A stretch of 64,000 nt of DNA from Methylocystis heyeri. Lineage in GTDB: Bacteria > Pseudomonadota > Alphaproteobacteria > Rhizobiales > Beijerinckiaceae. The notes under the pieces are model-generated. The model made no database searches. It was not told the DNA's origin and was given only the letters and a program-made list of their open reading frames with translations. The DNA lies in assembly GCF_004802635.2 (NCBI RefSeq), contig NZ_CP046052.1, positions 3,990,501-4,054,500 on the forward strand. Direction: 5' to 3'. Shown piece by piece: positions 6,033 to 37,400 of this stretch (its first letter is position 1; every line of letters begins with the position of its first letter). Both the position numbers and the translations under genes were made by a program.

Positions 6033-6683
6033 TCACAAATAGCGTTCGAGCTCATGCGCCGCTTCGGCGGGTTTTCGGGAGACGTTGAACGCGCCGACAA
6101 AGCGGCCGTTCTTGTCCATCAGATAGACGATGCTGGTGTGGTCCACGCCGTAGTCGGCCGCGTCGCCGGGAGCGCGCTTGGCGTAGATGCGGTATTCTTT
6201 CAGCATCGGGTCGAGCGCCTCGTGAGCGCCTGTCAGTCCCACGATGCGAGGATCGAAGCTCGAAAGATAATCCTTCAGGGTCTGGGGGGTGTCGCGCTCG
6301 GGATCCACGGTCACGAACAACGCGCCGATTTTTGCGTCGGGACCGAGCGTCCGCAGCGCCTCCGACATTTCGAACAGCGTCGTGTGGCAGATATCGGGGC
6401 AATGGGTGTAGCCGAAGAACACCAGATAGGGACGGCCGACCATATCCGCATTGGTGAAGGTTCCGCCTTCGTGGCGGACCAGGCTGAAAGGCCCGCCGAC
6501 CTCCGGCGTGGTCGCCGGGCGGCTGGTGAGACCGACGAAAGCGGCGAACAGCAGCGCGCTGGCGACGCCGATCGCGATGAGCGGCTTCGTCGCGACGGCC
6601 GGGCCCTTGGCTTCGTTTCCGGCGTTTCGTTTCGCTGTGCGTCCGGTCGTTTTTTTTGTTTTGCTTCTTGCTTCATCCGACAT
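6033..6683 (-). CDS. SCO1/SenC-family copper chaperone
   Basis: A 216-residue membrane-anchored thioredoxin-fold protein. A lysine-rich cytoplasmic tail (residues 1-33) precedes one hydrophobic helix (about 34-52), then the periplasmic SCO domain. The copper ligands are present: CPDIC (Cys95, Cys99) and His182 in VDHTSIVYL. The family delivers copper to the CuA site of cytochrome c oxidase or acts as a thiol redox protein. No cox genes are nearby. The ATG at 6683 has only a weak ribosome site. A DUF411 copper-associated protein lies 5 kb away, but there is no operon link. Confidence 0.93.
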   Translation of the reverse strand: MSDEARSKTKKTTGRTAKRNAGNEAKGPAVATKPLIAIGVASALLFAAFVGLTSRPATTPEVGGPFSLVRHEGGTFTNADMVGRPYLVFFGYTHCPDICHTTLFEMSEALRTLGPDAKIGALFVTVDPERDTPQTLKDYLSSFDPRIVGLTGAHEALDPMLKEYRIYAKRAPGDAADYGVDHTSIVYLMDKNGRFVGAFNVSRKPAEAAHELERYL

Positions 6684-6778
6684 GAGGTGCCTATCCCAGC
6701 GAAGCTTCGTTTACCGCCGTCCTCTGCGGCGCCTATCGCGTTGCGGACGACCGGCGGCCGCCGCATCGGCGCAATCTT

Positions 6779-7144
6779 TCAGTCCACCATAACGATATGA
6801 GCGTCGTTGCACAGATCCAATGCGCCGGCGTCGTCCGCGTCGTCGAATTTCCAGCGCGCCTGAAACAGGCAGCCTGTGGCTCGTTCCAGTTTCAGATCGG
6901 CTTTTTCGCCTGCGGGGAGGGGCTTGTCCAGCTTCGCGACGATCAGTTCCGGCGCGGGCCCCGAGCCTTTCTTCGCTATGGTGAAGCTCTGGAGCGAGAC
7001 GCTCCGTTTGTTCTCGAGCGTCACCACGACCGGAGGCTCCCGTCTTACGGCGTCTCGTTTGGACGCGGCTTTTGCCGCCCCGACCTGCGTCGCGACGACG
7101 CAGATCACGAGTGCCGAGCGGGCGAGCGCTAAACGCGAACTCAT
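6779..7144 (-). CDS. small secreted protein, unknown function
   Basis: A predicted 121-residue exported protein. The start at 7144 is chosen because it gives a clean signal peptide (MSSRLALARSALVICVVATQ, then an AKAAS cleavage site) and has AGGA about 10 bases upstream; an in-frame start 54 bp further upstream would hide the signal peptide. The mature part is about 95 residues with two cysteines (GCLF and DLCND) that could form a disulfide. No family recognised. It lies 95 bp upstream of SCO1 on the same strand, so a periplasmic partnership is possible but not supported by more than position. Confidence 0.75.
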   Translation of the reverse strand: MSSRLALARSALVICVVATQVGAAKAASKRDAVRREPPVVVTLENKRSVSLQSFTIAKKGSGPAPELIVAKLDKPLPAGEKADLKLERATGCLFQARWKFDDADDAGALDLCNDAHIVMVD

Positions 7145-7283
7145 CGGGGGTGATCCTGTTGCGGCGGGGAATCTACCCTGTCCGCCCGTTTTCGCCAAGG
7201 GCGCCCGGCCCGCGCTCTACTCGCCTTATCTGATTTGCTTTTCGCCGGCGGAAAGCCGCTTTCGGGCTTTTTCGCGAACCCGC

Positions 7284-8159
7284 TCATCCATTTGGATGGA
7301 AAGGCGATCTGGACACGCCCTCGCTCAGCGGCGCCTCCAGGAAAAAGTCCAGAATGGCCTCCTCCGCGGGATCGACCGCATAAGAGGTGAAATCGGTCAC
7401 GCCCTCTTCGCGTAGGGCGGCGACGTCTATGAAAAAGTTGCCTGAGCAAGAGCGGGCGGGGCGGGTGAGAACGGCGTGGGCCGCATCCGCGACGATCTCG
7501 GGCTTGCGCGAGCGGCGCAGGGCCGCCTCGCCGCCCAGCAGATTGCCGACGGCCGCGGTCGCTATCGCGGTTTCGGGCCAAAGGGAATTTACGGCGACGC
7601 CCTCAGGCGCGAGCTCCCGCGCCAGACCCAGCGTCACGAGGCTCATGCCGTATTTGGCGATCGTATAGGCGAGATTGGGGGCGAACCACTTGGGATTGAG
7701 GTCGAGCGGGGGCGAAAGCGTCAATATATGCGGGTTTCCCGCCTTTTTCAGATGCGGTAGAGCCAGCTTGGAGCAAAGATAGGCGCCGCGCGCATTGACC
7801 TGCTGCATCAGATCGTAGCGCTTCATGTCCAGCGTCTCGACGCCGCGCAGATCGATCGCGCTGGCGTTGTTGACGAGAATATCTAGCCCGCCGAAGGTCT
7901 TCGCCGTCTCGGCGACCGCGGCCTCGACCTGGTCTTCGAAGCGGATGTCGCAGGCGAGCGGCAAGGCCTTGCCGCCGGCGGCTTCGATCTCTTTCGCGGC
8001 GGTGTGGATCGTACCGGGAAGCTTCGGGTGCGGCGCCGCGCTTTTCGCGACGATCGCCACATTGGCGCCGTCCCGGGCCGCCCTGAGCGCGATGGCGAGA
8101 CCGATGCCGCGGCTGGCGCCCGTGATGAACAGCGTTTTTCCGGCGAGAGATCGACCCAT
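7284..8159 (-). CDS. short-chain dehydrogenase/reductase (HSDL2-like)
   Basis: A 291-residue NAD(P)-dependent oxidoreductase with the full SDR signature: cofactor loop TGASRGIG (residues 13-20), NNAS near residue 96, and the catalytic YTIAK near residue 165. The sequence around the active site (SPPLDLNPKWF) and the length resemble the SDR_c/HSDL2-like group rather than FabG. Substrate is unknown. It is transcribed away from the CTAG-bounded repeat at 8242-8344 and followed by the small secreted protein gene 139 bp downstream. Confidence 0.9.
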   Translation of the reverse strand: MGRSLAGKTLFITGASRGIGLAIALRAARDGANVAIVAKSAAPHPKLPGTIHTAAKEIEAAGGKALPLACDIRFEDQVEAAVAETAKTFGGLDILVNNASAIDLRGVETLDMKRYDLMQQVNARGAYLCSKLALPHLKKAGNPHILTLSPPLDLNPKWFAPNLAYTIAKYGMSLVTLGLARELAPEGVAVNSLWPETAIATAAVGNLLGGEAALRRSRKPEIVADAAHAVLTRPARSCSGNFFIDVAALREEGVTDFTSYAVDPAEEAILDFFLEAPLSEGVSRSPFHPNG

Positions 8160-8241
8160 GCCATTATCCCTGCTGCGGGCGCATTATTGCGATGGTGACG
8201 CGCTTCGATTTGTCCTCGGGGCGCGCCCCGGCCGGCTCAGC

Positions 8242-25356: not shown

Positions 25357-26295
25357 TCAAACTTTGGCGGAGTCGAGGGGTTTGGGGCTCGCCGGCCTGA
25401 CTTCGTGGAACCTGTTGAAATCGACGACGGCGGCGCCGTTGTCGCCGAGCCGGAAAAGGTCCTCGTATTCGTAATCCACCAGCACGTCGCTCGCCGCATA
25501 GATGCGGCGCCCGCGCAGGGCCTGCTTCGAGCTTTCGTCGTGGCCGCTGAAGATGACGATCAGACTGGCGTCGGAATTGGCGAAATCCTCCTGCGTCCAG
25601 CCATGAACAGGACTGGTTTCGTCGACGACATGCAGGATAGTCCAGCTCAGGGCGAAGATCGGGTTTTCGTCGCGCATCAGCCTGAGCGGGTGAAATCTGC
25701 GGAAACTGGAGCCTTCGAGCGTGCGTTCGTTGCGCGCGAGCCATAATCTGGCGCCGGCCTCGGTGATGGCGTTGTGGCGTTCGTTGGCGAAGCGGATCAT
25801 CAGGGTGCGCGCGCCGTCATGCGTGGCGACCACGGGCCGCTGCGCGAAAAGCAGGCGGGCGCGGGGCTGCGAAAAACGGGCGAAGGTCAGGCCGGCCGTG
25901 ATCGCCATGGTGCAAACGCCGGCGAAAGTGGCGAGCGTCGCGACGACATGCCCCGCCAGCGAACGGGGGTGCATGTCGCCATATCCCACGGTCGCGAGGG
26001 TTTCGACGCTGAAGAAGAAATAATCCAGGAACGACCCCGGGCGCGCATTGGCGATGGGCTGATCCCCGAAATAGAAGCAGAGCCAGTAGAGGCCCGCGAA
26101 GACCAGGTTGAGAAGGACGAAAATAAGCGCCAGCGTGGCGAAGAAGGCCGGCCAGCCGACGCTCATGGCGTAGTGGTGCTGGTCCGTCCAGACGCTGCGC
26201 CGCAGCCCCTCGGCGATCAGACTCCTGCCGCCGATGCGGATGACCCGCCCGTTCGGCGCGCCGAAAAGTCGTTCCCGAACCTGCGCGAAAATCAA
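25357..26295 (-). CDS. KirBac-type inward-rectifier potassium channel
   Basis: A 312-residue channel. An amphipathic slide helix (WTDQHHYAMSVGWPAFF) precedes TM1 (~54-75), the pore helix and selectivity filter TVGYGD, and TM2 (~120-142). A C-terminal immunoglobulin-like cytoplasmic domain follows (RTLMIRFANERHNAITEA ... ASDVLVDYEYEDLFR). All match KirBac. The only start that keeps the slide helix is TTG at 26295, which overlaps the EipA stop (TTGA), so translation is probably coupled. Confidence 0.92.
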   Translation of the reverse strand: MIFAQVRERLFGAPNGRVIRIGGRSLIAEGLRRSVWTDQHHYAMSVGWPAFFATLALIFVLLNLVFAGLYWLCFYFGDQPIANARPGSFLDYFFFSVETLATVGYGDMHPRSLAGHVVATLATFAGVCTMAITAGLTFARFSQPRARLLFAQRPVVATHDGARTLMIRFANERHNAITEAGARLWLARNERTLEGSSFRRFHPLRLMRDENPIFALSWTILHVVDETSPVHGWTQEDFANSDASLIVIFSGHDESSKQALRGRRIYAASDVLVDYEYEDLFRLGDNGAAVVDFNRFHEVRPASPKPLDSAKV

Positions 26296-26915
26296 AACGG
26301 ATTCCAGGTCGAGCGTTCGGTGAACTTCAGATAGCCGAGGTTGAGCCCGAGCCGCGCGCCCACTCCCGATCGGATCGGGACCACGACCACGTCCTGGGCC
26401 TCGAGGGCCGTGAAGCCGAAGCCCCCGATCAGATAGGCCGAGCCGTCCATGCCGCTGAAGCGCTGGAACATCGCTTCGACCGACGGGAGGTTGTAGACCA
26501 GCATCATGGTGCGGTCGCCGTCCGCTCCGGCGTCCAGGCCGAGCGAGGGTCCCTGCCAGAAAATGCGCCGATGCCCGGCGTTGCGGGTGTACATGTCGCC
26601 TTCGCCGTAGCGCAGCCCGCCGATGAAGGCCCCGCCGGCCTCCTGGCCCAGAACATAGGCGTTGGGCTTGCCCCAGCGGCGCGTGGCCGATTCCACCCCT
26701 TCCGCGAGCCCGCGCGAAATCGAGCCGAAGAAGCGATGGCCGTTGGCGATCACCTCATTGTCGGAATAGGCTTCGGGGCGGTCGGCGGGAGGGGGCGCCC
26801 GCCCGAAGGCTTCGCCCGCGGCCAGCGTCAGGGCGGAGGAAGCCCCGGTGCGCAGCAGGGTTCGGCGCGAGACCTGCCCGCGCATGAACGGCGTGGAGTT
26901 GTCGGCGGCGCTCAT
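26292..26915 (-). CDS. EipA-family (DUF1134) envelope protein
   Basis: A 207-residue periplasmic DUF1134 protein of the EipA family, needed for envelope integrity in Brucella and relatives. A twin-arginine-like signal (VSRRTLLRTGASSALTLAA) spans residues ~15-40. Family landmarks: WGKPNAYVLGQEAGGAFIG, LRYGEGDMYTRNAGHRRIFW, then MMLVYNLPSVEAMFQRFSG and the C-terminal GARLGLNLGYLKFT. The ATG at 26915 has GGAGAGAGG upstream. It is the first gene of a likely operon with the KirBac channel. The family is alphaproteobacterial, useful for placing the organism. Confidence 0.93.
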   Translation of the reverse strand: MSAADNSTPFMRGQVSRRTLLRTGASSALTLAAGEAFGRAPPPADRPEAYSDNEVIANGHRFFGSISRGLAEGVESATRRWGKPNAYVLGQEAGGAFIGGLRYGEGDMYTRNAGHRRIFWQGPSLGLDAGADGDRTMMLVYNLPSVEAMFQRFSGMDGSAYLIGGFGFTALEAQDVVVVPIRSGVGARLGLNLGYLKFTERSTWNPF

Positions 26916-26935
26916 CTTGCCTCTCTCCTCAGCAG

Positions 26936-26993
26936 TAGAGTGTTTTCGAGCGCAGGGGATGCCGGTTCGCGTCAGGAAAACACGATCAAACAA
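26936..26993. repeat. CTAG-type intergenic repeat, diverged copy C
   Basis: Begins TAGAGTGTTTTCGAGCGCAG, then GGGATGCCGGTTCG, GGAAAACACG and ATCAAACAA. It aligns base for base with the first 55-60 bases of the 8242 element allowing scattered changes. The right end is not recognisable and the CTAG edges are degraded. It lies in the 279 bp spacer between EipA and cysQ; the rest of the spacer holds no gene I can support. Confidence 0.65.
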
Positions 26994-27194
26994 GGAAATC
27001 CGGAAGTCTTTTCGGCTCGATCCGAACCGGAAAGATTCTGGCGCCCCGGAATCCGCCTCGATCGAGCCGCCGAGCGGCGCGCGCCTCGCAAGGGCAACAG
27101 CGGATGCTCCGGCGACGCCGCGTCCCTGGAGCGGATGGTTTCCGGTCCCGGCTGTGGCCGCGACGCCACAGGAAAGCAATCTGCCTCGCTATCC

Positions 27195-28016
27195 TTAAGA
27201 AAAGGTTGCCGAATTAGGATCGCCAAAACAGACGAATGGACCGTTCTTATAGTTCTGGTCGGCTTTTCCGTATCTTAGCGGCTCCCCTCCGGGGATCAGG
27301 GTCACGCCGCCGGCGGCGCGCAGGACCGCGTCGCCGGCCGCCGTGTCCCACTCCATGGTCGGCCCCAGGCGCGGATAAATATCCGCGGCGCCCTCGGCCA
27401 CGCGGCAGAATTTGAGGGACGACCCCGCGTCGATCCGGTCCTTGATCTTCCGCCGCGCCAGAAAAGCCTCGGTCTCGGCGTCGAGGTGGGAGCGGCTGAC
27501 GAGGGCGGTCGCGCCTTCGGGCGGCAGCGGCCTGGTGCGCAAAACCCGCCAATCGGACGCCGGCGGCAAGGGGGCGCCCGGCGCAGCCCTGACGAAGCTG
27601 GCCGCGCCCCCCGCGAACCATAATTCTCCCAGCGCCGGCGCATAGACCGCGCCCGCGATCGGCGCGCCGTTCTCGACATAGGCGACATTGACGGTGAATT
27701 CCTTGCGCCGCGCGATGAATTCGCGAGTGCCGTCGAGCGGATCGACCAGCGCGAAACAGCCCGATTGAGAGGGCGTAATCCCGCGGGCGGCGCTCTCCTC
27801 CGCGATCACGGGAAGCCCCGGCAGGCGGCGGGACAGGGCGGCGAGCAGAAAAATCTCCGCGCGCTCGTCGGCCTCGCTGACCGGACTGCTGTCGCCCTTG
27901 ATGCGGGTTTCTATTGTCGCCCGGCCAAAGACTTCCATGACGATCGCGCCCGCTTCGAGGCAGAGTTCGGCAAAGAGCTTTGCGAGCGCGTCGGGGGCCA
28001 TTGGCGGGCTGGACAT
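27195..28016 (-). CDS. cysQ: 3'(2'),5'-bisphosphate nucleotidase
   Basis: A 273-residue inositol monophosphatase-fold enzyme that hydrolyses 3'-phosphoadenosine 5'-phosphate to AMP during sulfate assimilation. Metal and catalytic motifs: AEESAA (residues ~70), DPLDGTREF (~90) and WDTAAGDAVL near residue 220. The start at 28016 (MSSPPMAPD) has AAGGAAG upstream; the frame is open 17 codons further. No other cys genes are adjacent. Distinction from SuhB rests on the CysQ-type GTREF and IDAGSSLKFCRVAEG. Confidence 0.92.
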   Translation of the reverse strand: MSSPPMAPDALAKLFAELCLEAGAIVMEVFGRATIETRIKGDSSPVSEADERAEIFLLAALSRRLPGLPVIAEESAARGITPSQSGCFALVDPLDGTREFIARRKEFTVNVAYVENGAPIAGAVYAPALGELWFAGGAASFVRAAPGAPLPPASDWRVLRTRPLPPEGATALVSRSHLDAETEAFLARRKIKDRIDAGSSLKFCRVAEGAADIYPRLGPTMEWDTAAGDAVLRAAGGVTLIPGGEPLRYGKADQNYKNGPFVCFGDPNSATFS

Positions 28017-28108
28017 GGAGCGGGCTTCCTTGGGGGATGGGTCACAGGCGCATGATAGCCCGAACAAACCGGCTTGGCGCGTGGCCGGGATAGCCTTAAA
28101 ACCAGCCG

Positions 28109-28909
28109 ATGCGCCCTTCGCCTTTCTGGACCGATCTTTCCACCCGCGATTTCGCCTCCCTCGATTGGGAACGGACCATCGTCGTCGCGCCTCTCGCCGC
28201 GGTGGAGCAGCATGGACCGCATCTGCCGGTGGGGGTCGACGCCCAGATCATGGAAGGCTGCATTGCGCGCGTCGCTTCGCGGCTGCCCAAGGATCTCGAC
28301 GTGCTGTTCCTGCCGATTCAAAATATCGGCGTCTCCACCGAGCACAGGGCTTTTCCCGGCACATTGACGCTGTCGCCGGCGACCGCTTTGCTGGCGCTGA
28401 TCGAAACCTTGGAGGGCGCCATAGCCGCGGGAGCGCGCAAGCTCGCTATGATCAGCTCCCATGGCGGCAATTCCCCGCTCATCTCCCAGGCGGCGCTGGA
28501 GTTGCGGGCGCGGCACGGCGTGCTGGCGGTGACCTGCTCATGGAGCCGCTTCGGCTATCCCGACGGCCTCTTCGGCTCCGACGAACTGCGCCATGGCGTG
28601 CATGCGGGGGAGATCGAGACCTCGCTGATGCTGGCCTTCCGGCCCGAGCTCGTCGAAATGGCGCGGGCGAGGAATTTTGTTCCCGCCAGCCGGGATTTCG
28701 AGCGCGACTTCACTTGGCTGCGAGCTGACCGGCCGGCGGGTTTCGGCTGGATGGCGCAGGATCTATCGCCCTCGGGCGCGATGGGCGACGCCTCCAGGGC
28801 CACGACCGAGAAAGGCGTGGCCGCGGCGGATTATTGGGCCACCGCCTTCATCGAACTGCTCCGCGACATCGAGGCGTTCGATCTGGAGAGGTTGAAGGGG
28901 ACGGAGTAG
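28109..28909 (+). CDS. creatininase-family amidohydrolase
   Basis: A 266-residue creatininase-family metalloenzyme. Metal ligands are visible in VEQHGPHLPVGVD near residue 33 (E-x-H-G-x-H), SSHGGNSPL near residue 115, and GVHAGEIETSLML near residue 165. The family cleaves cyclic amides or peptides; members include creatininase and MftE-like peptidases, and this one cannot be assigned further. Divergent from cysQ. A partial decayed copy of its 3' third lies at 30027-30290, on the other side of the patatin gene. Confidence 0.9.
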   Translation: MRPSPFWTDLSTRDFASLDWERTIVVAPLAAVEQHGPHLPVGVDAQIMEGCIARVASRLPKDLDVLFLPIQNIGVSTEHRAFPGTLTLSPATALLALIETLEGAIAAGARKLAMISSHGGNSPLISQAALELRARHGVLAVTCSWSRFGYPDGLFGSDELRHGVHAGEIETSLMLAFRPELVEMARARNFVPASRDFERDFTWLRADRPAGFGWMAQDLSPSGAMGDASRATTEKGVAAADYWATAFIELLRDIEAFDLERLKGTE

Positions 28910-28924
28910 CCTCCTCCAAATGCT

Positions 28925-29848
28925 TCAAAGATATCGCCGCAGCATGGGCAGGGCGTGTTCGACGCAGGCGCGCCCTTCCGCGAAAGCCTGTTTCGCTTTG
29001 GTGAATTCGAGCACGCCGATGTTCTGCAGGCGCGGCGTCAGCATGACGTGGGGCGGCTCGCCGGCGAGGCGCGCCCGCGTGATCTGGTCCTGCATGATGT
29101 TGATGGAGTTGTTGAGAACGTCGAAATAGCCCGGCGTCGATGGCCCCTGCGGCAGCAGCCGCAGGGCGATCTGGGTCGCCTGCTCGCGCGCTGCGGCGGG
29201 AAAATCGGTCAGCATCCGCCCGAAAAACTCGCCCGGCGTCGCCGGGCCGCTCGAGACCGGCTTTTCGCGGGGGGCGTTGTCGGGCCGCTGTCCCAGCAGG
29301 TCGCCGTTGAGGTTGACGGCGATGATCACATCCGCGCCGAGCGCGCGGCACAGCGAGACCGGCACCGGATTCACCAGACCGCCGTCGATGAGCCATCGGC
29401 CTTCGACCTCGGCGGGGCTGATGAACCCTGGAAGCGCGATGGAGCCGCGCACGGCGTCGAGAATGGGGCCCGACTGCAGCCAGACCTCGCGGCCGGTGTT
29501 AAAATCCGTGGCGACCGCCGCGTATTTTTTGGCGTAGCTCTCGATCGGCGCGCCGATCCCCAATTTTCGCAGGAACTCTACGACCAGCCTGGCGTCGATG
29601 AGGCCGCCGCCGGCCAGCCGGACGTCGAGCAGCGGCGCGATCTCGCGCCAGCTCGCGGCCTCGGCCCATTGCCGCAAGTCGGGCAGGCGCTCCGAGACAT
29701 AGGCGGCTCCGATCAGCGCTCCCATCGAGGTTCCGCAGACGATTTCGGGTTCTATGCCGGCTTCCGTCAAAGCGTCGATGACGCCGATGTGGGACCAGCC
29801 GCGAGCGGCTCCGCTGCCGAGGGCGAGGCCGATACGAGGACGTGACAA
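28925..29848 (-). CDS. patatin-like phospholipase (RssA-like)
   Basis: A 307-residue patatin-family acyl hydrolase with the Ser-Asp dyad: oxyanion loop GLALGSGAARGWSHIG, nucleophile elbow GTSMG (Ser near residue 52), and DGGLVNPVPV near residue 155. It resembles the RssA/YchK group. The start is taken as TTG at 29848 because GGAGA lies 6 bases upstream and it begins right before the conserved domain; a second TTG at 29881 has no ribosome site. It converges with the creatininase gene (15 bp gap). Confidence 0.88.
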   Translation of the reverse strand: MSRPRIGLALGSGAARGWSHIGVIDALTEAGIEPEIVCGTSMGALIGAAYVSERLPDLRQWAEAASWREIAPLLDVRLAGGGLIDARLVVEFLRKLGIGAPIESYAKKYAAVATDFNTGREVWLQSGPILDAVRGSIALPGFISPAEVEGRWLIDGGLVNPVPVSLCRALGADVIIAVNLNGDLLGQRPDNAPREKPVSSGPATPGEFFGRMLTDFPAAAREQATQIALRLLPQGPSTPGYFDVLNNSINIMQDQITRARLAGEPPHVMLTPRLQNIGVLEFTKAKQAFAEGRACVEHALPMLRRYL

Positions 29849-29926
29849 AAGCGGTCTCCGTTTAAGAGAAGCGCGAAGCAAGCCGCAAAGGGGGCGTTGC
29901 TTGCGAGCCGGATGTCGGATTTTAGC

Positions 29927-29966
29927 CTAGCGCGCTTTCCGCGCGAACGGAATCGGTCGAACTCCA
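29927..29966. repeat. second CTAG repeat type, copy 1
   Basis: Starts CTAGCGCGCTTTCCGCGCGA and continues ACGGAATCGG. The first 15 bases and the GGAATC following are shared with 48353-48392. Intergenic, upstream of the patatin gene. Right boundary uncertain. Confidence 0.5.
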
Positions 29967-30026
29967 TAGACGCGCCGCCAGAGCGTTTGCAAGGATGAGG
30001 GGCGCTTGCGAAGAACAATGCCGTGT

Positions 30027-30290
30027 CGTGCGGGGGAAATCGAGACCTCGCTGATGATGGCCTTCCGGCCCGATCTGGTCGAAATGGGGGGGCCCGGAAT
30101 TTTGTCCCGCCAGCGGGGATTTCGAGCGTGATTTCATCTGGCTGCGCGCCGACCGGCCGGCGCGGTTCGGCTGGATGGCGCAGGATCTTTGGCTCGCCCT
30201 CGGGCGCGATGCGCGCCGCCTCCAGCGCCACCGCCTTCGTCGAACCGCTCCGCGATATCGAGGCGTTCGAGCCGGAGAGGTTGAAGGGGG
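30027..30290 (+). pseudogene. decayed partial copy of creatininase gene
   Basis: About 264 bp that align closely with the 3' part of the intact creatininase gene (about 28611-28897): shared runs include ATCGAGACCTCGCTGATG, TTCGGCTGGATGGCGCAGGA and GAGAGGTTGAAGGGG. It has several small indels that break the frame and one deletion of about 40 bp whose edges share GCCAC in the intact gene. No start region is present. It is therefore a truncated, non-functional duplicate, probably left by a local duplication that jumped the patatin gene. Confidence 0.85.
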
Positions 30291-30670
30291 AGGGGCAGGT
30301 TTTTGGCGGGATGCTGTAATGGAGGTCTTAAGACCGGTCTTGCGACGATAGTCCAATTTACAAGGCGCCGCCCAAGCATAATATGCCGCTCGCCGAAGCA
30401 ATTCTCTAGGTTCCACCCAAAGCAGAGATTACTCGCACTGGCTTGTTGGTCTGGAGCGAGTGTTCGTGACTGGACGGGTCGGGGCGTGTTTTCTGGTCGA
30501 TCGACGCAAACGGCGGGCTATAATAGAATGGAGATTACACAAATAATTTCATAGTAATTAGTACGAAATATGGCGTTTTCGATCGCTATAATATGCTTGA
30601 CAGCTCGTAAAAATAGGCTGCAATGTATGGTATTAACGACTTCCTTTCAATGAAGTGACAGGATCGAAGA
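30291..30670. other. AT-rich spacer before secreted-protein cluster
   Basis: No gene is supported in these 380 bases. Base composition shifts from GC-rich to AT-rich towards the right, marking the edge of the segment with the small secreted proteins. It contains a perfect TATAAT at 30587-30592 and a perfect TTGACA at 30597-30602, so at least one promoter for the cluster probably lies here. Confidence 0.6.
30597..30625 (+). promoter_or_regulatory. candidate promoter of secreted-protein cluster
   Basis: TTGACA at 30597-30602 matches the sigma-70 -35 consensus; the -10 at 17-18 bases spacing (CAATGT) is weak. A separate perfect TATAAT lies just upstream at 30587-30592 but lacks a clear -35. The leader to the first ATG at 30671 would be about 45 bases. 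Confidence 0.35.
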
Positions 30671-31204
30671 ATGGTTCGTCTCCTATATTCGTTTGTCGTT
30701 GTAAACGCGACGCTCTGCTGTGCTCTGACGGCGAGCGCCGATCCGGCGACAGTCGCCGGCGCGAAGGTGTTCGGCTATCTCGATCCCAAGACCAACACTT
30801 TCAGGGCCGCGCCCGAACCCCAAACACAATCTCAATTTGTGACCGGCCGACTCATCGAAGTGTCCGGAACGCTGAATCTCACCGTGAATGTGACCTTCGG
30901 CCCGAGCTTTCCGCCCTCGGCGACAACAGAAGTTTTTGTCACCGCCAATTCGAAGCCCTGGCGTTACGACAGGCCCGCCTATTCCTCCGGCTTCAGTGGA
31001 AAGGCGACTGTGGTCCGCTCAGGAAATTCAGGAACGGCCTCCCTGAGCATTCCCTATATCTTCGAGGCGACCTCGACCAAGGACACCGTAACGGTCACTC
31101 TGAATCTGCAGTCTTCGAGCGGCGACAGCGCCTTTCTCGGACAGACGTTTCCCCTGCCGAAGAACGGAGCGACCCCGCAACTGACTTTCAATCAGACTTT
31201 TTAA
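30671..31204 (+). CDS. small secreted cluster protein 1
   Basis: A 177-residue exported protein of no family I recognise. Signal peptide residues 1-23 (LLYSFVVVNATLCCALTASA). The mature N-terminus has FGYLDPKTNTFRAAPEP, resembling GYYDPATGTFAPLKP in protein 4 of the cluster. The rest is Ser/Thr/Val-rich and predicted beta, with GTASLSIPYIF and the end LPKNGATPQLTFNQTF. The second half lines up with proteins 3 and 5 (IPY segment, P-x-x-G-x-T, terminal F-x-x-T-F). AGGA lies 8 bases before the ATG. Gene 2 starts 16 bases downstream, so an operon is likely. Confidence 0.8.
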   Translation: MVRLLYSFVVVNATLCCALTASADPATVAGAKVFGYLDPKTNTFRAAPEPQTQSQFVTGRLIEVSGTLNLTVNVTFGPSFPPSATTEVFVTANSKPWRYDRPAYSSGFSGKATVVRSGNSGTASLSIPYIFEATSTKDTVTVTLNLQSSSGDSAFLGQTFPLPKNGATPQLTFNQTF

Positions 31205-31219
31205 GAGGGAAATCGAAAG

Positions 31220-31666
31220 ATGCGCGCCGCTTCCTTACCGCTTCTCGCTGTGGCCTGCGCTGCAATTCTCTTCGCTACGCCAAGGGATCTGGCAATCGCC
31301 TCCCCCACCACGATTTCGGGGACCTTCAGCGTAACCCTTGCGATCATGTCCGACAACGCCACTATTCCGCTGAACACCCCGATCGCACTCAGCGTCAGCA
31401 TCGGCGGTTCGGTTCCCCAGGCCTCGGGCAACCAGGCTACGTCCGCGCGCCAAACAGTGACCAAGACATCGACCACGCAGAACGTCACCATATCGCTGCC
31501 GTTCGACTGGACGTCGCAAGGCGCGCCGCCGACCGTCGCCACGCTCTCCGTGAGCGTTACGCCCGCGCTCAATTATCCGGCGAGCGACAGCCTTTACCTC
31601 ACGCTGACCGTTCCAGTCCCAGCCAATAACGGGACGATGGCCATCACCCTGCCTGCGCAGCTTTGA
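31220..31666 (+). CDS. small secreted cluster protein 2
   Basis: A 148-residue exported protein, unrecognised. Signal peptide in residues 1-28 (LPLLAVACAAILFATP). No cysteine in the mature part; Thr/Ser/Val-rich beta-type sequence throughout. The segment TTQNVTISLPFDW occupies the place of ISVNIPYAF in protein 3, and the end VPANNGTMAITLPAQL matches the P-x-x-G-T pattern of the others with a changed last residue. This is the most diverged member of the four similar ones. GAGGGA lies about 10 bases upstream; gene 3 begins 17 bases downstream. Confidence 0.78.
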   Translation: MRAASLPLLAVACAAILFATPRDLAIASPTTISGTFSVTLAIMSDNATIPLNTPIALSVSIGGSVPQASGNQATSARQTVTKTSTTQNVTISLPFDWTSQGAPPTVATLSVSVTPALNYPASDSLYLTLTVPVPANNGTMAITLPAQL

Positions 31667-31682
31667 TCTGGGATAGGACGCG

Positions 31683-32183
31683 ATGACGACGAGAAATATC
31701 TTCACGTTGCTTTTTTGCGCCGCAATGCTCTTTTCGGTCGACGCTCTGGCGATCGATGCCCAGACGCCTGGCGCAATCCCGCTGGAGAGCGTTCCCGTAA
31801 GGCTCAAGCCAGCGACGACAACGACCCAATATAACGGAACGGTCGCCATAAGCGCGGTGATCGCGGCCAATGCACAAACGCCAGATGGAACGACGATAAA
31901 TTACAACGCTTCGGCGGTCGTCATGGACGGCTTTTTTACCAGTGAGCGCTTCGTCGGCGGCAGCGCTACCTTTAGCGGCGGCGCGGCGACGATCTCCGTC
32001 AACATCCCCTATGCGTTTTTCATAGGGTCGTCTTCTGCGACGCTGAATATTTCTTTCGGGGTGAGCAGCACGGTCAATCCGCCAAACAGCGGACCCATAA
32101 CCTATAGCCTCGCTTTCGGCTCCAGTCCGCCCTTGCCGGCCAGTGGAGCTACGACGCCCGTCAGTTTTTCCGGGACATTTTGA
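31683..32183 (+). CDS. small secreted cluster protein 3
   Basis: A 166-residue exported protein. Signal peptide residues 1-23 (IFTLLFCAAMLFSVDALA). The mature part aligns over its whole length with protein 5: GTVAISAVIAANAQTPDGT against GTIQAAATVSANPGIPNGT, then GGSATFSGGAATISVNIPY against SGNATVSNGIISISANLPY, and the end TTPVSFSGTF against TTSLSFSGTI. So the two are clear paralogs. AGGA lies 4 bases upstream of the ATG. Predicted all-beta and periplasmic or extracellular; no known domain recognised. Confidence 0.82.
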   Translation: MTTRNIFTLLFCAAMLFSVDALAIDAQTPGAIPLESVPVRLKPATTTTQYNGTVAISAVIAANAQTPDGTTINYNASAVVMDGFFTSERFVGGSATFSGGAATISVNIPYAFFIGSSSATLNISFGVSSTVNPPNSGPITYSLAFGSSPPLPASGATTPVSFSGTF

Positions 32184-32184
32184 C

Positions 32185-32751
32185 ATGAAGAAATACTGCT
32201 CGCCTATCCTTGCGCTGCTGGCGCTTTTGTCAGAACCGGTCATGGCTCAACAAAGCAGCGCCGCCGGCGCACCGCAGAGCCCGGGGCCGGCGGTCGCCGA
32301 TCCGGCCTTGCCGGCGATCGATGAAATTCCCGGCTATTACGATCCGGCTACGGGAACATTCGCGCCGCTGAAACCGGGCCGGAGCCCGGCGCGGAATACG
32401 CCAACCTTTACGACAACAGCTTATCTGGTGATCTTCCCTTACGTTCATCACAGCGAAGGGTATGGCAGCATCACATGCAGCGCGCGGATCACTTATGTGT
32501 CTTCCGACCGCTCCAAACCCGCCGCCACTCTTACCCGCGAGGCAAAACCCAATGAAGGTAACTATGTTGAATTTGACGTAGACGCTGGTGGAGATACTCG
32601 GCCCATGGGAACCGTCACTGTGCAGTGCACAGGCTATGATGGCTCGGGCCGGTCTCGGTCGGCCTCGGGCGCCACGTTTGTCTACCTCGATCCACGAGCT
32701 ACGCCTTACACCGGGTGGATACCTGCCTATGTAGATATAGCATTCCCTTAG
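32185..32751 (+). CDS. small secreted cluster protein 4
   Basis: A 188-residue exported protein starting 2 bases after the stop of gene 3. Signal peptide residues 1-21 (ILALLALLSEPVMA). After a Pro-rich linker comes EIPGYYDPATGTFAPLKPG, the motif also seen in protein 1 and familiar from many uncharacterised proteobacterial exported proteins. The rest (YGSITCSARITYVSSD ... MGTVTVQCTGYDGSG) differs from proteins 1-3 and 5, and has two cysteines that could form an Ig-like disulfide. It may be a distinct partner in the same system. Function unknown. Confidence 0.78.
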   Translation: MKKYCSPILALLALLSEPVMAQQSSAAGAPQSPGPAVADPALPAIDEIPGYYDPATGTFAPLKPGRSPARNTPTFTTTAYLVIFPYVHHSEGYGSITCSARITYVSSDRSKPAATLTREAKPNEGNYVEFDVDAGGDTRPMGTVTVQCTGYDGSGRSRSASGATFVYLDPRATPYTGWIPAYVDIAFP

Positions 32752-32873
32752 TGCGGATCGACACCGTATCCTCTCGCTCGACCAATTCTCAAGGACAGGA
32801 AAGCGCGTCACCGAGGTGACCGAGCCAAAACAGCGCACCGAACGGAAAACGCAACAACCTCGAAAGCAAGCCA

Positions 32874-33368
32874 ATGATCGCCCGACACAAAATTGCAACA
32901 ATTTACGGTCTGGCCTGCGCGCTTGCGGCTTCCGCTCAAGCGCTGGCGCAAAGCGCGAACCCGGCGGCGCCTCTGGCGTCGCTTCCCTTGCCGACCCAAC
33001 CCGCGACCAGCGTCGCCGAAATTACCGGGACGATCCAGGCCGCCGCAACAGTCTCGGCCAATCCGGGCATCCCCAATGGGACGGCAGTGTATTACACGCT
33101 CTCGGCCTCGGTTCCGGATCCTTCTTTCAGCAACTCCCGCTCCGCCAGCGGCAACGCAACCGTCAGCAACGGAATCATTTCAATCTCCGCCAACCTGCCC
33201 TACGACATGCTCGTCTCTTCGTCCTCGGATAAAATAGTCTTCACGCTGCAGCTCACCGCAACCGTTCTCGGCACGCCGGCGCTTACTTTTTCGACGAGTT
33301 TCAACTCGGCCTTTGCTCCGCCCGCCAATGGGACGACAACTTCGCTCAGCTTTTCTGGAACCATATAG
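32874..33368 (+). CDS. small secreted cluster protein 5
   Basis: A 164-residue exported protein, clear paralog of protein 3. Signal peptide residues 1-26 (ATIYGLACALAASAQALA). The mature part is cysteine-free, rich in Ser, Thr, Ala and Asn and predicted beta; it ends PPANGTTTSLSFSGTI. It is separated from gene 4 by 122 bases, so it may have its own promoter or be less tightly coupled. The ribosome site is weak (AAAGCAAGCC). No domain recognised. Confidence 0.8.
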   Translation: MIARHKIATIYGLACALAASAQALAQSANPAAPLASLPLPTQPATSVAEITGTIQAAATVSANPGIPNGTAVYYTLSASVPDPSFSNSRSASGNATVSNGIISISANLPYDMLVSSSSDKIVFTLQLTATVLGTPALTFSTSFNSAFAPPANGTTTSLSFSGTI

Positions 33369-33686
33369 TTTTCGCAGGCGGAGAACGCCCTGTTCGCTTC
33401 GCGACAGGTGGTTGTGAGGAGCCCATCGACGCCGTAGGGCGGCGAACCCGCCTCGTTGCGAGGAATCTGCAGGCGATATTGGGCCGAAGCAGCTCAATCC
33501 GGAAGGCAGAGCCGCGAAGCCTTCGCCGAGTGTTGCGCGAGACGAGCGGGTAGTGCGGCGCCGCGCAGCTGCTTCTTTGGCGGCCTGAAAAAGCCGGGGC
33601 CGCGTCGGCGATCCCATAGCCACTATGAGCCGCTACCCTGCCGCCCTTGGGGACTCGCCAGCGGATGCTTATTTTTTGATTGTGAA
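33369..33686. other. spacer between secreted cluster and tRNA-Asp
   Basis: 318 bases with no supportable gene. Composition returns to GC-rich. Short open frames on both strands lack ribosome sites and family resemblance. No direct repeat of the tRNA 3' end and no integrase remnant could be seen by eye. Confidence 0.5.
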
Positions 33687-33763
<77 letters not shown>

Positions 33764-34124
33764 GCAACAACAGCGCGTTGCGTGTGGGGGGTCGAATAGG
33801 ACATGCGCCGGGGGATGTCAACGCCTTGATTTCGTTTTGTCGCGAGATCGGGCGAAACCCCCTGTATTGCGGGGCGTTTCCGCGTCGCGTCGGCTAAACT
33901 GGTTAAGGAGCCGTCGCTTCGGGTCGTCATGGCCGGGTCGTTCGAGACTTTCCGCGGCTCCGCGGCCTGGAGGCCCGCGACAAGCGCCAGCGCCGCCGCC
34001 GCCGACCGGCGGGAAATCTCGATTCGCAGCCGGGTTTCTGCGGAGCCACGCTGGACTTCGGCGGCGTCAAAGTCCTATGTCAGATCGAAACGTCAACGCC
34101 TTGCCCTCATCGCGCCAAAGAATC
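33764..34124. other. spacer upstream of sdhE
   Basis: 361 bases without a convincing gene; promoters for tRNA-Asp (leftward) and sdhE-mfd (rightward) should lie here. The frame of sdhE is open into this region, with a second ATG at 34077 that could extend SdhE by 16 residues. Confidence 0.5.
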
Positions 34125-34439
34125 ATGACCGGCGACGCCGCCTCCGCCAAAGCCGAACCACAATCGCCTCCCGACCCGCTGGACCTGATCCGGCGCCGCA
34201 TCCGCGTGCGCGCCTGGCGCAGGGGCATGCGCGAGATGGACATGATTCTCGGCGGATTCGTCGACGCCCATATCGAGAGGCTGGGCGCCGAAGAGCTGGC
34301 CCAGCTCGAGGCGCTGCTCGACGCCGACGACGATGTGGCCTTCTCCTGGTTCTGCGCCGGAGCAGCGCCCGCGCCCTACGACACCCCTGTTTTTCGCAAA
34401 ATCGCGGCCTTCCAGGCCGAAAAGGACAAGGATCCTTGA
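34125..34439 (+). CDS. sdhE: succinate dehydrogenase assembly factor SdhE
   Basis: A 104-residue SdhE (SDHAF2/YgfY) protein that promotes covalent flavin attachment to SdhA. The conserved RGMREMD (RGxxE) is near residue 36, followed by AEELAQLEALLDADD and DVAFSWF. An upstream ATG at 34077 would give 120 residues; neither start has a strong ribosome site and 34125 better matches family length. The stop overlaps the TTG start of mfd (TTGA). The sdhE-mfd neighbourhood is common in related bacteria; sdh structural genes are not in the window. Confidence 0.9.
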   Translation: MTGDAASAKAEPQSPPDPLDLIRRRIRVRAWRRGMREMDMILGGFVDAHIERLGAEELAQLEALLDADDDVAFSWFCAGAAPAPYDTPVFRKIAAFQAEKDKDP

Positions 34440-37400
34440 AAGCCCGCACCGATATTCGCGCCGAGACGGCGGCCGGCGCCCTGAAAACCGCGCTTTCGCG
34501 CATCGAGGCCGGGGAAAAGCTGCTCTGCGCCCATGCGCCCGAGGGTTTCGACGCTTTCATCGCCGCTGATTTCGCCCGCGCGCTGGCGGCGCGATCGGAG
34601 GGCGAGGCCGCCGTCTTCGTGCATGTGGCGCGCGACGCCACCCGCTCGGCGCAGTTCCGCGAGGCCTTGCGTTTCGCTGCGCCTTTTGTGGAGGCGCTCG
34701 ACATTCCGGGCTGGGACTGCCAGCCCTACGACCGGGTTTCGCCCAACGCGGCGATCGCGTCGCGGCGCATGACCGGTCTCGCCCGCCTCGCGCGCTCGCG
34801 TTCCTCGGCCGAGCAGCCCCGGGTCGTGGTCACAACCGTCGATTGCCTGCTACAACGCGTCCCCCCGCGGGCGAAAATCGCCGCCGACACTTTTTCCGCC
34901 GCGCCTGGCAATATGGTCGAGATGGACCTTCTGGCGCGCTGGCTGGAGAACAACGGCTTTTTGCGCTCCAGCACGGTGCGCGAGCCGGGAGAATACGCCC
35001 AGCGCGGCGGCATCGTCGATCTTTTCGCCCCCAGCATGCCGGCGCCGATCAGGCTCGATTTCTTCGGCAACACGCTCGAATCGATTCGCTCCTTCGATCC
35101 CGAGACCCAGCGCACCACGGGCCAGCTTCGCGCCCTCGATCTCGTGCCGATGAGCGAATTGCAGCTCGTCAGCGACACGATGCGGCGGTTCCGCCAGGGC
35201 TACACCACGCGTTTCGGCGGCGAGACCCGGGGCGACTCGCTCTATGAGGCGATCAGCGAAGGCCGCCGCCATCCCGGCGCCGAGCACTGGCTGCCGTTGT
35301 TCTACGACCGGCTCGACACATTGTTCGATTATTTCGGCGATGCGCCGCTCCTGCTCGACGCCCAGAGCGAGGACGCCGCCGGCGAGCGGCTGGCGCAGAT
35401 CGCCGATTATTACGAGGCCCGCAAGAGCGCCTTCGACGCCGAGCAGGGCCGCTCGAACTACAAGCCGCTGGAGCCGCGCGAGCTTTATCTCACGCAGGAG
35501 GAATGGCGCGGCCAGCTCGAGCGCCGGGCGCAGGCGCGCTTTTCGCCCTTTTCAGCGCCCGAGGGCGAGGCCGCGAGCCTTGATTTCGGCGCGCGGCCGG
35601 GCAGGGATTTCGCGCCCGAGCGCAGCCAGCCGGAGGTCAACGTTTTCGAGGCCGCGGTCGGCCATATCGAGGCGCTGGCGGCGCGGGACAAGACCGTGGT
35701 GGTCGCGGCCTGGTCCGACGGCTCGCGCGAGCGCCTCGGCCATGTGCTGACTGAACATGGCTTAAAGGCCCCTATGTTGGTTTCTTCGTTGCCGGCCGCT
35801 TTTGCGCTCGGCAAGGGGAAGGTTGCGCTCGCGGTGCTCGGCGTAGAGCACGGCTTCGAAACCGACGATCTCGCCGTCGTCGGCGAGCAGGACATTCTCG
35901 GCGACCGGCTGGTGCGCCGCCGCCGCAAGGCCAAGCGCGCTGAAAATCTCCTCGGCGAAATAGGCGCTCTTTCGGCGGGCGATCTCGTCGTGCATGTCGA
36001 TCACGGCATCGGCCGCTTCGTCGGGCTCGAGACCATCACAGCCGCCGGCGAGCCGCATGATTGCCTCGAAATCCATTACGCGGAGGGGGCCAAGCTTTTC
36101 CTCCCCGTCGAAAACATCGAGCTGCTGACCCGCTACGGCTCCGAGGACACCGAAGTCGCGCTCGACCGGCTCGGCGGCGCCGGCTGGCAGGGCCGCAAGG
36201 CGCGGATGAAGAACCGCATCCGCGAAATGGCCAAGGGCCTGATCGCGATAGCGGCGCAGCGCATGCTCAAACAGGCGCCCAAGCTCATTGCGCCGGAAGG
36301 GCTCTACGACGAATTCTGCGCCCGCTTTCCCTACGACGAGACCGAAGACCAGGCCGCGGCGATCGAGGCGGTTCTGGAGGATCTCGCCTCGGGCCGGCCG
36401 ATGGACCGGCTGGTTTGCGGCGACGTCGGTTTCGGCAAGACCGAGGTCGCCCTGCGCGCGGCCTTCTGCTCGGCGATCAACGGCAAGCAGGTCGCCGTGG
36501 TGACGCCGACCACGCTGCTGGCGCGGCAGCATTACAAGAATTTCTCGGAGCGGTTCTCGGGCCTGCCGGTGCGCATCGGGCGGCTGTCGCGCATGGTCGG
36601 CGCCGCCGAGACCAAAGAGACCAAGAAGCAGCTCGGCGAAGGCAGCGTCGACATATTGATCGGCACCCATGCCATTCTCGGCAAGGGGGTCAATTTCAAG
36701 GATCTCGGCCTCGTCATCGTCGACGAGGAGCAGCATTTCGGCGTCGGCCACAAGGAGCGCCTCAAGGAGCTGCGCGCCGAGGTCCATGTGCTGACGCTGT
36801 CGGCGACGCCGATCCCGCGCACGCTGCAGCTCGCCATGACGGGGGTGCGCGAGCTTTCGCTGATCGCGACGCCGCCGGTCGATCGTCTCGCCGTGCGCAG
36901 TTTCGTTTCGCCTTTCGATCCGCTCATCGTGCGCGAAGCTTTGCTGCGCGAGCGTTATCGCGGCGGGCAGGCCTTTTTCGTCTGTCCCCGGATCGAGGAC
37001 CTCGACGAAGCCTCGGCCTTTTTGCGCGAAAATGTGCCGGAGGCGAAATTCGTCGTGGCCCACGGCCAGATGCCGCCGACCGAGCTCGAAGAGAAGATGT
37101 CGGCGTTCTACGAGGGCGGCTACGACATTCTGCTGTCGACGACGATCGTCGAATCGGGGCTCGACATTCCGACCGCGAACACGCTGATCGTATGGCGCGC
37201 CGATATGTTCGGCCTCGCCCAGCTTTATCAGCTGCGCGGCCGCGTCGGGCGCGGCAAGACCCGCGCCTATGCGCTGTTCACGACGCCGGCCAACCGCACC
37301 ATCACGCCCCAGGCGCAAAAGCGGCTCGAGGTGCTGCAATCGCTCGACACGCTCGGGGCCGGCTTCCAGCTCGCGACCCACGACCTCGACATCCGCGGCG

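Follow-up and report, generated by a model that had tools for sequence, protein, structure and literature searches.

TasA-type fibres, as outlined in PMC10903470, consist of beta-sandwich subunits joined by donor strands and are built without an usher. The locus considered here is a cluster of five genes in a 64,000-nucleotide stretch of the Methylocystis heyeri genome (hereafter the window). It resembles the fibres as outlined there in its small, predicted exported beta-sandwich subunits, in the N-terminal extension of two products (P1 and P4, numbered by gene) and in having no usher; it differs in having four different subunits, whose polymerisation is a supposition. If they do polymerise, the cluster proteins could work like TasA fibres, an analogy by which we claim no membership in the TasA family. 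No TasA match was found by sequence against solved structures, and TasA is absent among the best 50 of 912 Foldseek rows, none significant.

Chaperone-usher pili, in the sense defined in PMC10903470, likewise have several small exported beta subunits encoded together. In contrast, the window genome is without an usher and the cluster proteins are without a family match; no PapD-type chaperone was seen among the open reading frames (ORFs) read around the cluster. The curli inhibitors CsgH and CsgC, as presented in PMC4838910, share with the predicted cluster proteins a small exported beta-sandwich of seven or so strands, but structure 2n59 matched the P5 model at just E 0.11 and TM 0.25, which is not significant, and there is no curli evidence beside the cluster.

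The five genes and their neighbourhood

Five same-strand ORFs at 30671-33368 encode proteins of 148-188 aa whose N-termini are all Sec-like by sequence, which agrees with the run of small secreted proteins described in an earlier note on this DNA. All five frames are open, each with a start. Gene 1 (30671..31204, + strand; P1, 177 aa) encodes a signal peptide, a GYLDPKTNTF head at residue 35 and a beta domain. Signal peptides followed by headless beta domains are encoded by gene 2 (31220..31666, +; P2, 148 aa), the mature part of which has no Cys, and by gene 3 (31683..32183, +; P3, 166 aa). Gene 4 (32185..32751, +; P4, 188 aa) encodes a signal peptide, the head IPGYYDPATGTFAPL, two Cys and a body that cannot be aligned to the other four. 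At a distance of 122 bp follows gene 5 (32874..33368, +; P5, 164 aa), a local paralog of gene 3 whose model is a seven-strand all-beta domain. The AT-richness claimed for the segment is borne out by GC and GC3, both lower in the cluster than in four neighbour genes, and the codon positions of P4 are nearly without contrast in GC (0.59, 0.57 and 0.61). Compared with shuffles, promoter-like sites (3 vs 1.2) and terminator-like sites (7 vs 4.8) show no clear excess.

Upstream lie the gene for EipA (Envelope integrity protein A; 26292-27179, − strand; Pfam E 9.7e-70), about 3.5 kb from the cluster, a creatininase gene (28109-28909) and a patatin gene (28925-29881, −). A gene for EipA suggests an alphaproteobacterial host. 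The patatin gene separates the creatininase gene from a degraded partial second copy of its 3' end (30029..30298, +), which duplicates the portion at 28593-28909 and forms the upstream boundary of the AT-richer stretch; ungapped blocks are 85-92% identical, and identity is 77% over 313 columns. On the other side, a tRNA-Asp (gtc) gene (33687..33763, −) has its 3' end facing the cluster. The earlier note had named a pseudogene and a tRNA as the flanks.

In G033, the genome of the genus that matches best at the DNA level (81% in the creatininase gene, 83% across 3.4 kb on the far side), the creatininase stop lies 107 bp from tRNA-Asp, as against 4,777 bp in the window. The 4,777 bp hold the patatin gene, which is absent there in G033, the partial creatininase copy and the cluster. 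A tRNA-side query matched 38 of 39 genomes of the genus, many of them over no more than the tRNA and a little sequence downstream. The difference may be a gain in the window rather than a loss in G033, a reading favoured by the lack of same-genus matches in the A2 search. A tRNA-borne integrated island was considered and is not claimed, as there was no convincing tRNA-end repeat on the far side (28000-34200) and no integrase was recognised by eye among the ORFs of 27000-37000. Empty searches speak against a phage or plasmid origin: nothing was found by tblastn of P5 against phages or by plasmid searches with P1, P4, P5, the single-gene relatives L051 and L097, L029 and gene 3 of L027, viral contigs held no confirmed relative of L097, and PHROGs gave zero matches for six proteins.

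Kinship, motifs and predicted fold of the five proteins

P3 and P5 are clear paralogs, in keeping with the full-length paralogy claimed for them, and genes 3 and 5 form a sister pair in trees built both with heads (98/92) and without (99/88). Judged by sequence, gene 5 seems to have arisen locally by copying of gene 3, and it is the sole gene that looks like a local copy. The earlier picture of an expanding local family is for this reason too simple, the more so as a four-gene layout recurs in another bacterial family (below). P1 and P2 are weaker yet significant relatives. An IPY-type segment and a PxNGxT-type turn ahead of the last strand, the pattern that P1 and P2 had been said to share, occur in P1, P3, P5 and, with variations, P2; P4 is without them. 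P4 has in common with P1 only the N-terminal GYxDPxTxTF head, which had also been noticed earlier, the remainder being unalignable, and its match to the rest is a weak profile match. Key positions are kept among proteins at 17-35% identity to P5 across two bacterial families.

The absence of a recognised family was confirmed in Pfam, NCBIfam and PHROGs, where no match of a cluster protein exceeded the cut-off. Matches of P3 to US10 (E 0.015) and of P2 to an NCBIfam model (E 0.1) fall under the curated cut-offs and were dismissed as chance, as was a match of the single-gene relative L051 to VacA2 (E 9.5e-4; 19.4 bits, where the cut-off is 27; 1 of 14 A6 members). Of two profile searches of PDB sequences, one gave five chance-level rows (E 0.076-0.68) and the other none, and a narrow literature search returned nothing on a secreted beta family with GxxDPxTxxF and PxNGxT motifs.

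P5 was modelled from its alignment with P1, P2, P3 and one Acidobacteriaceae relative. The model has a mean pLDDT of 80.6 and a pTM of 0.66, with pLDDT at or above 90 at 96 of 164 residues; past residue 50, pLDDT is mostly above 90 and block averages range over 79-97. The model consists of seven strands and zero helices, and its N-terminal part is disordered, with no strand able to act as donor. The model of P4 was poor (pLDDT 52) and left unused. Structure prediction had been proposed as a check on whether all five proteins share one fold; it supports a single all-beta domain common to P5 and its aligned relatives, and gives no such support for P4, with its low pLDDT and weak profile match. 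Foldseek of the P5 model found nothing at E <= 0.001 against the PDB (best E 2.8e-3, TM 0.32) or against viral models (best E 5e-3). The lack of a structural match to a predicted model is no proof that the fold is new.

The four-gene layout and what it may encode

G099, a genome from the same order but a different family, has two four-gene clusters, each laid out as head, no head, no head, head. The first (L027, + strand: 6044-6550, 6565-6963, 7056-7508 and 7538-8185) has spacings of 14, 92 and 29 bp; the second (L028, − strand: 8330-7749, 7722-7333, 7305-6826 and 6829-6230) has spacings of 26 and 27 bp and an overlap of 4 bp. The window cluster is this layout plus gene 5, with a head on genes 1 and 4 but on neither 2 nor 3, and neighbour genes, as far as nameable by eye, differ between the window and G099 clusters. 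Co-conservation of gene order in relatives, which the earlier note had asked about, thus came out in favour, the layout being carried twice by G099.

With heads included, the best match fell at the same position in 13 of 14 comparisons. With heads removed, this dropped to 7 of 14 (gene 3, 5/5; gene 2, 2/3; genes 1 and 4, 0/3 each). In a tree of 18 proteins with heads, gene 4 left out, position labels clustered (4 changes against a shuffled mean of 9.1, as low in 0 of 200 shuffles), and support was 92/86 for the gene-1 group and 53/60 for the gene-2 group. Labels clustered less without heads (6 changes against 9.1, as low in 0 of 200); the gene-1 and gene-2 groups dissolved, the gene-1 group being no tighter than in shuffles. 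Orthology at all four positions is thus not upheld without heads and was kept for gene 3 and partly for gene 2. The gene 4 head is almost unchanged across the three clusters, whereas its body has diverged. As judged from these sequences, three clusters in two genomes keep the layout, with gene 3 traceable and genes 1 and 4 linked by the head. The four-gene layout is probably a real unit, and the cluster finding is real and modestly surprising.

We put at roughly 40% the probability that the cluster encodes a co-expressed, hetero-oligomeric, extracytoplasmic beta-sandwich assembly; its function and assembly, like the co-transcription, export, physical association, head docking and place of action of P1-P5, are what we infer. 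Genes 1-4, with gene 5 as a gene 3 copy, would be a conserved module for several different small Sec-exported subunits. These would join outside the cytoplasm into one hetero-oligomer (a fibre, coat or surface patch), built without an usher or anchor gene belonging to the module. Genes 2, 3 and 5 would supply bare domains, and the GxxDPxTxxF head of genes 1 and 4 would probably be a beta-hairpin docking onto a partner. Consistent with such an assembly are the single strand, short spacing and same layout of the two G099 clusters, the best matches of gene 3 and, in part, gene 2 to their counterparts without heads, the clustering of position labels with and without heads, the retention of the gene 4 head while the body diverged, and the confident seven-strand P5 model. 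Against it stand the 122 bp before gene 5, the failure of headless genes 1 and 4 to best match their positional counterparts, the finding of the layout in two genomes only, and the disordered N-terminal region of the modelled P5, in which no strand could act as donor. Because the other relatives are single genes, the beta domain can also work alone.

A more specific version, which we consider unlikely in full, is a not yet described, usher-free extracellular assembly of four different beta-sandwich subunits, three without the two-Cys pair of the single-gene relatives, in which the heads of subunits 1 and 4 dock and the four genes travel together from one bacterium to another, bringing no mobile genes with them. 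Should the four-gene unit yield a single structure, bacteria would have an extracytoplasmic assembly that needs very few genes and no usher. Even otherwise, the cluster belongs to a recurrent exported-protein family whose fold is predicted with confidence and which is unnamed in the libraries searched, and the simple head motif gives a handle for finding further members.

The assembly has a strong rival, ranked second and likewise short of an even chance: the proteins could each act on their own as soluble domains that bind a glycan, a metal or another protein (e.g. an amyloid subunit, as CsgH for curli), kept together by duplication and shared regulation without forming a single complex. In favour are the single-gene relatives, of which the own genome has two, and a weak Foldseek match to CsgH of R. 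palustris (rank 15, E 0.11, TM 0.25), but that match is not significant and no gene next to the cluster was recognised as a curli gene; moreover, the fixed head/no-head layout in three clusters exceeds what duplication alone predicts. It is improbable that the stretch is a new acquisition with little or no function, drifting since transfer. The GC and GC3 deficit, the adjoining broken gene copy, the absence from the best-matching same-genus genome, the patchy family and the nearly flat codon-position GC of P4 would fit drift; five open frames with starts, and key positions kept at 17-35% identity in two bacterial families, speak against it, and no close copy usable for dN/dS was found. Chaperone-usher pilus subunits, brought to mind by the grouping of several small, exported, Ig-like beta proteins that bear N-terminal extensions, are hardly credible, as an usher-built pilus is excluded at profile sensitivity by the absence of PF00577 in both the window genome (G000) and G099 (no first-look candidate; control positive in E. 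coli), and no SCPU or fimbrial Pfam match was seen.

Single-gene relatives and distribution

Relatives outside the clusters are single genes, and the window's own genome has two further members of this kind (C1:1809354-1809836 and C1:1164474-1165001). Beyond residue 25, two Cys are present in each of the eight single-gene relatives examined; in the clusters, 0 of 10 proteins of classes 1-3 have Cys there, and two Cys occur in gene 4 in 2 of 3. These sequences suggest that a disulfide was lost in the clustered classes. The own-genome relative at L051:6457-6999 has two Cys and a GFLNPATGAF head, in which N replaces D.

Members were counted as lower bounds, the largest searches having scored 8 or 9 first-look candidates per genome, and the counts include the own genome where drawn. 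They number at least 3 of 150 relatives with A2 (own genome included, and no other of the genus), at least 5 of 397 genomes of the order with A3, at least 2 of 385 in the class search, at least 3 of the 20 genomes from G099's family, at least 2 of 398 of the phylum with A5, and at least 2 of 200 with A6 in the order to which the Acidobacteriaceae genome belongs. The A9 search matched at least 19 of 397 genomes at E <= 0.01; five were accepted (G000, G099, G454, G206 and G287) and 14 dropped, judged from the table (best E 4.5e-4 to 8.6e-3). Weak matches were also dropped in G069 (an in-frame stop and no good match on recheck), G1009 (an in-frame stop; E 0.0013), G1302 (in-frame stops) and G745 (a long repetitive frame). 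The G745 frame (L052, C118:1-4000) is secreted, with many beta-domain-like repeats, and its E of 1.2e-4 was taken as chance.

A scan of a genome contig collection with P5 gave zero relatives. Scanning for a single exact version of the head returned one record, an Acidobacteriaceae bacterium MAG (JAFAYL010000017.1) holding a full-length relative at L097:3077-3628; gene 1 of G099 fits the pattern yet was not returned, so the collection scanned does not show every genome. Unlike the window cluster, the MAG relative is a lone gene, with two Cys in its mature part. In G461 an identical single-gene relative sits at a nearly equal offset on two contigs, C1 and C2 (L049 and L050), perhaps an assembly duplicate, and one copy of the protein entered the trees.
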